A DNA stretch of 64,000 bases from Vacuolonema iberomarrocanum LEGE 07170 (lineage in GTDB: Bacteria; Cyanobacteriota; Cyanobacteriia; Elainellales; Elainellaceae), in the NCBI GenBank assembly GCA_015207365.1, contig JADEXA010000017.1:1-64000 (forward strand). The letters are read 5' to 3'. A program made the position numbers and the translations under genes. Positions 15,698-64,000 of the stretch are shown piece after piece. Position 1 is the stretch's first letter; every line of letters starts with the position of its first letter. The notes under the pieces were generated by a model. The model was not told where the DNA came from, ran no database searches, and was given only the letters and a program-made list of their open reading frames with translations.

Positions 15698-15768
15698 AAT
15701 AAAACACCATAGTTTTGGGGAGAAGCGCGGCGCAGCCGCGCTTCTCCCCAAAACTATGGTGTTTTATT
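15698..15768. repeat. 71-bp perfect palindrome between convergent genes
   Basis: Two 34-bp arms (15698-15731 and 15735-15768) are perfect reverse complements around a three-base centre, GCA. The inner part is GC-only and the ends are A/T-rich (AATAAAAC / GTTTTATT). It lies between the stop of the response regulator and the stop of the convergent decarboxylase-fold gene and could terminate both transcripts. It is far longer than a terminator needs and resembles the other long palindromes in this window. Confidence 0.9.
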
Positions 15769-29411: not shown

Positions 29412-29506
29412 TATAGCGCTATGCGCGTTAGTTAAGTACGGTTGTGTGGGGCGCGCCGCGCCCCACACAACCGTTGCTGTGCTTAATGCGGTTGCACACC
29501 GCTATA
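29412..29506 (+). mobile_element. Family A palindromic element (MITE-like), copy 1
   Basis: A 95-bp element beginning TATAGCGCTATGCG and ending TGCACACCGCTATA, with a central perfect palindrome of 12-bp arms plus extension (GGTTGTGTGGGGCGCG on the left, mirrored on the right). The outer left arm (GTTAGTTAAGTAC) does not match the right arm. TA at both ends suggests a TA target duplication. Other copies are at 38276, 53242 and 55982. The remainder of the 29025-29613 gap holds no gene I can see. Confidence 0.85.
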
Positions 29507-31195: not shown

Positions 31196-31275
31196 GGCAT
31201 GATAAGAAAGCAGATCCTAAAAACCTGCAACGCCTGCGCTGCAGGTTTTTAGGTTTAATAGCACCTGGCAACTTA
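31196..31275 (+). mobile_element. Family C palindromic element, copy 1
   Basis: An 80-bp element starting TAAGTAGCTCGGCATGAT and ending AGCACCTGGCAACTTA. The core is a palindrome, CCTAAAAACCTG paired with CAGGTTTTTAGG (31216-31253). A second copy in the opposite direction is at 33802-33908. The surrounding gap (30920-31633) holds no gene that I can support. Confidence 0.75.
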
Positions 31276-33801: not shown

Positions 33802-33908
33802 TAAGTTAGCAGGTGCAATTAAACCTAAAACCCTAAAAACCTGTGCCGCCCGCAGCGCGGGCGGCACAGGTTTTTAGGGTCTGGTTTTTCATCATGCCGA
33901 GCTACTTA
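33802..33908 (-). mobile_element. Family C palindromic element, copy 2
   Basis: A 107-bp element, inverse in direction to the one at 31196-31275, with the same ends (TAAGTTAGC and GCTACTTA) and flanking tracts. Its core, 33830-33880, is a perfect palindrome of 24-bp arms around AGC. The outer part (CCTAAAAACCTG) is shared with copy 1; the inner GC-rich part is different but still self-complementary. The remainder of the 33559-33917 gap is empty. Confidence 0.78.
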
Positions 33909-38218: not shown

Positions 38219-38240
38219 GTGAGTCTGATCTAGCGGTCGA

Positions 38241-38416
38241 GCATTGCTGTTGAGGGGATAATTTTTCTAAGAAGGTATAGCGCTATGCGCATTAAGCACA
38301 GCAACGGTTGTGTGGGGCGCGCCGCGCCCCACACAACCGTTGCTGTGCTTAATGCGGTTGCACACCGCTATATGTACCGCGCACCTTCTCAGAAAAATTG
38401 TCCTTGGATTCTGCAA
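38241..38416 (+). mobile_element. Family B palindromic element, copy 1, split by a nested family A element
   Basis: The left part GCATTGCTGTTGAGGGGAT and right part TCCTTGGATTCTGCAA match the ends of the element inside the GUN4 gene (63732-63820). Between them, the hairpin arms CTAAGAAGGT and ACCTTCTCAG are separated by a 97-bp family A element at 38276-38372. This is a transposon-in-transposon arrangement that gives relative age: B first, then A. Confidence 0.8.
38276..38372 (+). mobile_element. Family A palindromic element, copy 2, fully symmetric interior
   Basis: Unlike the other three copies, both arms here carry GCATTAAGCACAGCAACGG, so the interior is a perfect palindrome with arms of over 30 bp. 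The left arm seems to have been rewritten to match the right. It starts and ends with TATAGCG/CGCTATA and sits in a family B element. Confidence 0.85.
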
Positions 38417-38474
38417 TTTCTATCTGGCCGTCGATAAGCTTGGTTGATGAAAGGAGTGGGGTTGGTGAGGCGAT

Positions 38475-41523: not shown

Positions 41524-41616
41524 TAGGACTTACGCAAGACTTGCATAATCCTGAGCTAATTCGTTGATTTTATGGCCGCGACGCGGCCATAAAATCAACA
41601 AAAGGCGTGAGTCCTA
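41524..41616. mobile_element. Family D palindromic element, longest copy
   Basis: A 93-bp element with 12-bp terminal inverted repeats (TAGGACTTACGC / GCGTGAGTCCTA, one mismatch). It contains a perfect 35-bp palindrome at 41564-41598 (17-bp arms, one central A). The rest of the 41490-41816 gap is empty apart from the hydrolase promoter. Confidence 0.75.
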
Positions 41617-42747: not shown

Positions 42748-42804
42748 AGAATCTTAATTTTTAGTGGCATGGGCAGTGCCCGCGCCACTAAAAATTAAGG
42801 TTCT
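42748..42804. repeat. Long near-perfect palindrome
   Basis: Arms of 21 bp (42748-42768 and 42784-42804, one mismatch) with outer AGAATCTTAATTTTTAGTGGC and a loop ATGGGCAGTGCCCGC that itself pairs GGGC/GCCC. The surrounding 881-bp gap (42612-43492) has no supported gene; a 70-residue frame at 42928-43140 looks spurious. Confidence 0.8.
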
Positions 42805-47002: not shown

Positions 47003-47075
47003 TTTTCTCTAAAGACAAATACCCCTGCCCATTCGCCACAACTGAATGGGCAGGGGTATTTGTCTTTAGAGAAAA
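47003..47075. repeat. 73-bp palindrome with 32-bp perfect arms
   Basis: 47003-47034 and 47044-47075 are exact reverse complements (outer TTTTCTCTAAAGACAAAT, inner GCCCATTC) with loop GCCACAACT. It lies 25 bp beyond the stop of the minus-strand TPR gene and may serve as its terminator. The other part of the 46574-47099 gap shows no gene. Confidence 0.85.
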
Positions 47076-55981: not shown

Positions 55982-56076
55982 TATAGCGCTATGCGTGTTA
56001 GTTAAGTACGGTTGTGTGGGGCGCGTCGCGCCCCACACAACCGTTGCTGTGCTTAATGCGGTTGCACACCGCTATA
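55982..56076 (+). mobile_element. Family A palindromic element, copy 4
   Basis: A 95-bp copy nearly identical to copy 1 (29412-29506), with a different central base (T instead of C) and TGCGTG for TGCGCG in the outer arm. It lies in the 906-bp gap 55644-56549, which also holds the family D element at 56359 and no supported gene. Confidence 0.85.
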
Positions 56077-63307: not shown

Positions 63308-64000
63308 TCAGTCAGATAGCTGGTTAAGGGTTCCGATTACCCCATAGCGATCGCCCTGAAGGGCCATCGCATCGATCATGCAACTGCCACAGCTTTGCGC
63401 GTTCAGTATGGCTTGGATCTGGCTCCAGGAAATTCCGACCCAAGGGAAATGCCCTACCGGAGCCTCCATGGACTGGGTCAGCTCTGGTTCTGTGAACCAC
63501 TCTGGAGAGACAACGTTATCGTGATCGATTGTCGGATGCATCCAACCGACCTGCTGTCCAAATGCTCGGACGGCTTCTTCCCGGTCGTTGGGATATTGGG
63601 CCATCACTTCCTGTCAAATTTGTCCCTGTACACTAAAACCGAATCGACCATCGCTGGCTTCCAGCCACAGCTGATCCAGAATTTGCAGTTGATCGGCTGG
63701 AATGTTTTCTACTAGGGGAATAACAAAAATAGGGGTTGCAGAATCCAAGGATGATTTTTTCTGAGAGGGGGCGCACCGCGCCCCCTCTCAGAAAAAATCA
63801 TCTCCTCAATCAGCAATGCGCAAAAATATGGCCATTGGGATGGATCCACTGATTCAGCAACTGACGGGTCTCGCGATCGGCGTTTTGCCAGTCCTGATTA
63901 TCCAGCTCGTTTCGTAGAGCGGCGAGGACATCATCACTGGCTTCGTTGGGAGGAGCTTGAGCAACTTGAACGGGGGAAGGAGCCAGGGCGGGTGCTTCAG
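63308..64000 (-). pseudogene. GUN4-domain protein gene, broken by element insertion and a TGA stop; start beyond the window
   Basis: GUN4 domains bind Mg-porphyrins and regulate chlorophyll synthesis; many cyanobacterial proteins carry GUN4 on other modules. Here a Pro/Ala-rich linker (APALAPSPVQVAQAPPNE) leads into LRNELDNQDWQNADRETRQLLNQWIHPNGHIF, then an 89-bp palindromic element (63732-63820) brings a stop. Downstream in another frame the domain resumes: VIPLVENIPADQLQILDQLWLEASDGRFGFSVQGQI, TGA at 63616-63614 where relatives have Trp, then QEVMAQYPNDREEAVRAFGQQVGWMHP and MEAPVGHFPWVGISW to the stop at 63308. Removing the element and one copy of the 8-bp TATTTTTG duplication joins the halves exactly in frame. 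Confidence 0.88.
63732..63820 (-). mobile_element. Family B palindromic element inserted in the GUN4 gene, with 8-bp target duplication
   Basis: 89 bp. The duplicated target TATTTTTG (minus strand) is at 63821-63828 and 63724-63731. The inner palindrome 63750-63802 has perfect 25-bp arms around ACC. The ends are CGCATTGCTGATTGAGG and CTTGGATTCTGCAACCCC, shared with the copy at 38241-38416. It has no coding capacity, so it must be moved by an enzyme supplied elsewhere. Confidence 0.9.

Follow-up and report, generated by a model that had tools for sequence, protein, structure and literature searches.

A long perfect hairpin lies inside a degraded GUN4-domain gene of the window, by which we mean the whole 64-kb stretch of DNA analysed here. 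What is this hairpin, what put it there, and how does its stem stay so perfect? The preliminary description had taken it for a mobile non-coding element of 89 bp, with a 53-bp perfect palindrome and an 8-bp duplication on both sides. Both lengths are confirmed at 63732–63820 (Table 1), where two arms with 100% complementarity enclose a short tip (25 + 3 + 25 = 53 bp), and the two flanking octamers are identical as had been claimed. The octamer CAAAAATA reads TATTTTTG in the direction of the GUN4 gene.

Table 1. Coordinates of the features discussed. Positions are those of the window unless a contig is given.
Feature	Position	Strand	Sequence or length	Basis or remark
Whole element, MITE	63732..63820	+	89 bp	Boundaries recurring in other copies, covariance model, copy-set reading
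Left target-site duplication	63724..63731	n/a	CAAAAATA, 8 bp	8/8 identical to right repeat
Right target-site duplication	63821..63828	n/a	CAAAAATA, 8 bp	8/8 identical to left repeat
Left terminal inverted repeat	63732..63755	+	GGGGTTGCAGAATCCAAGGATGAT	Consensus of 65 copies; 2 mismatches to IS1-subgroup end motif
Right terminal inverted repeat, inward reading	63797..63820	-	CGCATTGCTGATTGAGGAGATGAT	3 mismatches to IS1-subgroup end motif
Hairpin core, left arm	63750..63774	+	25 nt
Hairpin tip	63775..63777	+	ACC, 3 nt	Sister copies with GGT, the reverse complement of ACC
Hairpin core, right arm	63778..63802	+	25 nt
Interrupted GUN4-domain gene, upstream part	63829..63998	-		Reading frame, Pfam, relatives
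Interrupted GUN4-domain gene, downstream part	63308..63723	-		In-frame stop at 63614-63616; reading frame, Pfam, relatives
Second palindromic family	29412-29506, 55982-56076, 38276-38372			Ends TATAGCG / CGCTATA
Probable old member of the IS1-type MITE family	38240..38420	-		By eye; split by unrelated 97-bp palindromic stretch 38276-38372
Own-genome IS1 element	C76:158746-159522		777 bp	Both frames open

The gene is read on the minus strand. When 97 bp are omitted, its frame HPNGHIF-VIPLVENIP becomes continuous, and so GHIF joins VIPLVEN just as the preliminary description had stated. Pfam finds the GUN4 domain in all three gene pieces, in one above the curated cut-off and in two below it. The read-across protein was searched against 36 genomes, the own genome among them, and its closest relatives are those of the same-genus genome G001 (64% identity, open frame of 675 aa) and of G005 (56%, 666 aa).

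The insert is absent from the GUN4 gene in both of these relatives, which supply the empty site that had been called for in a related gene. Over the insertion site the G005 protein is gapless (HPNGDVFSSPLASNIP against HPNGHIFVIPLVENIP) and the G001 protein is shorter by one residue. The window gene also has the in-frame stop listed in Table 1 and misses the WD40 C-terminus of its relatives. Hence the insertion is not the sole lesion and the gene is a pseudogene.

The element is one of many. BLAST finds further copies in the genome that share its boundaries, and the family numbers about 120 copies, as a covariance model built from 27 copies matched at least 122 distinct places. This number is a lower bound, since 150 of the 4500 candidates were scored. 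We read 119 of the 122 with up to 1 kb of flank on each side, and the three places left unread are C61:57758 (58.6 bits), C53:83071 (51.3) and C92:35511 (44.4). L019, the opposite strand of L012, was omitted from one comparison; L019, L025 and L030 were excluded from the copy alignment. Within the window, the copy at 63732–63820 is the single intact member (115.2 bits), and the next matches are other palindromes of 47.5 bits at most, the level that unrelated palindromes can reach with this model.

The length is exactly 89 bp in 64 of the 119 copies. The flanking octamers are identical at 8/8 positions in 43 copies, 7/8 in 22, 6/8 in 12 and 5/8 or fewer in 42. Thus 77/119 copies have octamers matching at 6/8 or better, as against 188/14042 (1.3%) control pairs that join the left flank of one copy with the right flanks of other copies. 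The mean identity of the flanking repeats is 0.72 at length 8 and 0.25–0.37 at lengths 5–7 and 9–12. The defined length and the 8-bp staggered cut proposed earlier accordingly agree with the whole copy set, where the duplication signal appears at length 8 only.

These copies decide against coincidence. A chance palindrome next to a chance 8-bp repeat might be imagined in a degenerate gene, and the GUN4 gene is indeed a pseudogene. However, the relatives lack the insert and many other copies have the same boundaries and duplications. With the duplication data of 119 copies we count this explanation as refuted, its probability being practically nil.

The targets are AT-rich and mostly non-coding. 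AT content is 67% in the 43 perfect target repeats and 50% in the flanks. Sites rejoined without the element lie inside an ORF of at least 200 aa for 8/119 copies vs 605/1172 random flank positions. With its second stop, the GUN4 site reaches no more than 98 aa in this test, and its coding status is taken from the relatives.

The family is real and well-delimited, a MITE family of a known kind. It is short (89 bp) and has no transposase gene, its terminal inverted repeats are imperfect (left GGGGTTGCAGAATCCAAGGATGATTT and right GGCATTGCTGATTGAGGGGATGATTT in the consensus of 65 copies with flanking repeats of at least 7/8), its target-site duplication has a fixed length of 8 bp, and its copies are many and dispersed (at least 122 places). 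A genome search with the 89-bp element, which the preliminary description had advised, yields numerous copies that agree in their boundaries and have 8-bp repeats. These copies, their fixed length, the duplications and the empty relatives together argue that the palindrome is a mobile non-coding element, as that description held. Among 60 related genomes, BLAST finds the 89-bp element in six, the own one included, and does not find it in the same-genus G001. A 30-base pattern had no match in a genome-contig collection that may leave out the own or near genomes.

Which transposase moves it? The 8-bp duplication was expected to narrow the class, and the class narrows to the IS1 family. In the 60 related genomes, a short end motif, GGYRTTGCTKAWT, is present 2109 times and the reversed pattern 81 times. 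A 24-base end motif, GGYRTTGCTGAATNNNNGNATGAW, derived from the MITE ends of relatives, is found with four mismatches or fewer at both ends of 73/119 MITE copies. Both ends carry it in 36 of the 43 copies with 8/8 repeats, as against none of 1182 flank positions.

The same motif bounds full-length IS1 elements, so that an insertion sequence with this end motif, the sort of partner that had been looked for, does exist. From 446 relatives of the own IS1 second frame in named genomes, 80 loci were kept, many of them from shared genomes; four were cut by contig ends and 76 were usable. The motif, searched only where ends were expected, stands on both sides of 68 of these 76 loci with at most four mismatches, and 146/149 control windows are at six or more mismatches. 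Among the 68 loci, 53 are 752–757 bp long and 38 have an 8/8 duplication. Full IS1 elements with 8/8 duplications are seen, for instance, in G031 (757 bp), G016 (744 bp) and G005 (754 bp).

The motif-bearing IS1 elements are at most a subgroup, because both ends are within four mismatches in only 6/25 loci of a separate set of distinct IS1 loci, in which partial transposase matches may hide an end. Elsewhere, two elements of 146 and 198 bp (L102 in G025:C1 and L099 in G025:C25) have like ends and unrelated interiors, with octamers of 8/8 and 7/8 by eye.

The own genome holds one IS1 element in which neither frame is interrupted (Table 1). The frames score 125.3 and 112.1 bits with NCBIfam NF033558 (cut-off 100), and the element scores 68 bits with PF03400 (cut-off 24.1). 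A defining trait of the IS1 family is a pair of frames linked through a –1 frameshift within a run of A. Here the two frames overlap at TAAAAAAAC, an A7C run, where a –1 frameshift is presumed.

The ends of this own element match loosely. Its left end differs from the right end of the 63732–63820 copy at 7/24 positions and its right end from the left end of that copy at 9/24, chance giving 6–7 mismatches at best in the 64-kb window. It comes closest to a second MITE subfamily, from whose right end it differs at 3/24 positions, and it has no in-register duplication (4/8). Hence the IS1 assignment rests on the subgroup motif and the shared duplication length. A closer IS1 partner that has been lost or is unassembled would fit the loose match.

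In sum, the MITE shares its end motif and its duplication length with the IS1 subgroup, and an IS1 transposase is encoded by the own-genome element. We put the probability at about 0.85 that the element is a MITE mobilised in trans by a cyanobacterial IS1-subgroup transposase. This transposase, from elements mostly of 752–757 bp (777 bp here), would recognise the terminal repeats, act in trans, make a target cut staggered by 8 bp and leave the 8-bp duplication. Mobility and its recency, the mover and the frameshift are inferred.

Duplications of 8 bp are made by other families too, with ISKra4/ISMich2, ISL3, ISAs1, IS66, IS1595 and IS6 as candidates. The MITE could be moved by one such family, with an old or convergent resemblance to the IS1 ends. 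The loose match of the own-genome IS1 ends would agree with this, and so would G013, where 116 short end motifs occur without any IS1 match, and the five ISKra4 fragments at own-genome contig ends. Further points against the IS1 reading are the 42/119 copies with octamers of 5/8 or fewer and the weak correlation of motif and IS1 counts over the 60 genomes (Spearman 0.29, p 0.025; 0.31, p 0.07 within the family).

On the other side, the ISKra4 fragments lack the shared terminal repeats and terminate by eye in GGGAGCATGTCAC, not GGGGTTGC. DDE_Tnp_1 has two loci in the genome, neither with a pair of matching ends. Moreover, the motif on both sides of 68/76 IS1 loci and the 8-bp duplication in 38/68 speak for IS1. 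The comparison of ends took in IS1, ISKra4 and DDE_Tnp_1, and on this basis a mover from another family is unlikely in our judgement.

Some further transposase sequences were met. ISKra4-family transposase ends lie at five contig ends of the own genome (L085, L087, L090, L091, L093); they are probably a multicopy insertion sequence collapsed in assembly. One DDE_Tnp_1 locus we take by eye to be IS982-like, and downstream of it, from about 2200 of L031, an ORF resembles by eye an integrase-type (rve/Mu-like) transposase. In G013, two end motifs at a distance of 873 bp had the look of an insertion sequence and turned out to be one MITE with a fortuitous motif match in a gene close by.

The stem shows compensation. 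In 27 copies, 13/26 stem pairs are changed on both sides, 500 shuffles never gave values as high as those observed, and slid pairings give far lower ones. These compensatory changes, together with the rarity of the copies in coding frames, are what could be said for a hairpin maintained by the host as a regulatory RNA, a transcription element or an mRNA-stability element, with no transposon involved. Against it are the 8-bp target duplications, and Rfam returns for the element only four microRNA models, far below their cut-offs.

The decay of the copies also opposes host maintenance. The more the flanking repeat has decayed, the more stem positions are unpaired (rho –0.50, 119 copies), and the stem is fully paired in 28/43 copies with 8/8 repeats vs 6/42 with 5/8 or fewer. 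Single-sided departures make up 3.3% of the stem cells with perfect repeats, 12.3% with 6–7/8 and 14.7% with 5/8 or fewer. Since the stems are mostly perfect with intact duplications and rarely otherwise, which is the opposite of maintenance, we conclude that the hairpin is not under host maintenance; nothing here suggests that the host keeps the stem. A host-kept hairpin without a transposon is highly improbable. Stem mismatch has no association with how far the ends have diverged (rho 0.09, p 0.31), and the age of a copy is therefore only roughly resolved.

Well-formed tips are present in 69 of the 119 copies, which make 227 pairs with nearly identical arms. The tip is the same in 105 pairs. 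In 26 pairs all three tip bases differ as exact reverse complements (ACC, GGT), and the two forms stand at 3:3 and 4:2 in the two main arm groups. Another 88 pairs differ by one base in the reverse-complement manner (AAT, ATT), for which a plain substitution is equally possible, and the other eight differences all come, as far as the counts allow, from one CCC copy. The three-base swaps are unlikely to have arisen by substitution alone.

Similar changes appear on a larger scale. Among the 119 copies, the layout of the ends is the usual one in 57, the interior is inverted in eight, both ends are of one type in seven, and 47 are otherwise arranged or unclassed; the inversion of the interior relative to the terminal bases is judged from two positions per end. 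The tip flips, the core inversion and the end overwriting point to hairpin-templated copying. Recombination between the arms could flip the tips; it would not easily overwrite an end.

Tentatively, the hairpin core may be self-templating. In source copies, one arm would repeatedly serve as the template for the other by way of an intrastrand hairpin, formed either when the DNA is replicated or as an intermediate of transposition itself, and perfect palindromes would be kept by this copying, not by selection. The same process could also flip the tip and perhaps the core. We regard it as a possible mechanism, short of a favoured one. If it holds true, inversion and overwriting at nested scales, in the tips, the eight cores and the seven ends, would be its mark.

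Other palindromes in the window touch on this question. The ends of the second palindromic family suggest a TA-target MITE, perhaps IS630-like. By eye, the stretch 38240–38420 is a probable old copy of the IS1-type MITE, seemingly with a member of that second family inside its hairpin; a scripted comparison gave no match there and the covariance model one fragment with E = 1. Unlike the members at 29412–29506 and 55982–56076, the one at 38276–38372 has its left arm copied from the right arm, so making a longer perfect palindrome, which suggests arm overwriting in an unrelated element. Self-templating may therefore be general for the MITEs of this genome.

A third palindromic family with common arms CCTAAAAACCTG occurs at 33830–33880, at 31216–31253 and at about 1–110 of L111, where it adjoins an IS1 transposase fragment. 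The long perfect or near-perfect palindromes at 15698–15768, 47003–47075, 42748–42804 and 41560–41602 showed no flanking direct repeat of 6–9 bp by script.

One of several unexplained palindromes is thereby assigned to a defined mobile family, for which a transposase class can be named and an 8-bp target rule given. That a bacterial repeat folds into a perfect hairpin does not by itself imply a host function. The copy set can be ordered by duplication decay and offers natural data on how perfect palindromes originate and persist in a genome. The pattern of hairpin inversion is the part most worth following.

Hairpin-associated small inversions are known from plastid non-coding DNA, where the loop between inverted repeats is found in both orientations. 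The tips described here likewise occur in both orientations, in this case inside a mobile element family.

The titles listed by a text search of the literature for the end motifs are unrelated. The titles and abstract openings listed in our literature search do not announce an IS1-type MITE of cyanobacteria, by which we do not claim its absence from print. In the portions consulted of the MITE review PMC10969869, an IS1-type MITE is not met; the reference list there cites Nezha of cyanobacteria.

The end motif and the 8-bp duplication are in common between the MITE and cyanobacterial IS1 insertion sequences, from which it differs in being 89 bp and non-coding. ISMae3 of Microcystis, an IS1-like insertion sequence according to PMC11448079, is likened here by description. 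The same paper gives a 187-nt Microcystis MITE with an ISL3-type transposase as its likely mover; it is likewise cyanobacterial but has another length and another transposase family.

Palindrome-associated elements (PATEs) of Haloquadratum, as outlined in the consulted part of PMC3119063, are also transposase-free, palindromic and dispersed, but they have neither terminal inverted repeats nor target duplications and are tied to IS605-type elements. The bacterial MITEs covered in the excerpt of PMC10969869 are closer, being short, non-coding and multicopy with IS-related terminal repeats and target duplications, as the family here is. The present family differs from them in that a single hairpin takes up most of the element and has a tip that is found in both orientations.
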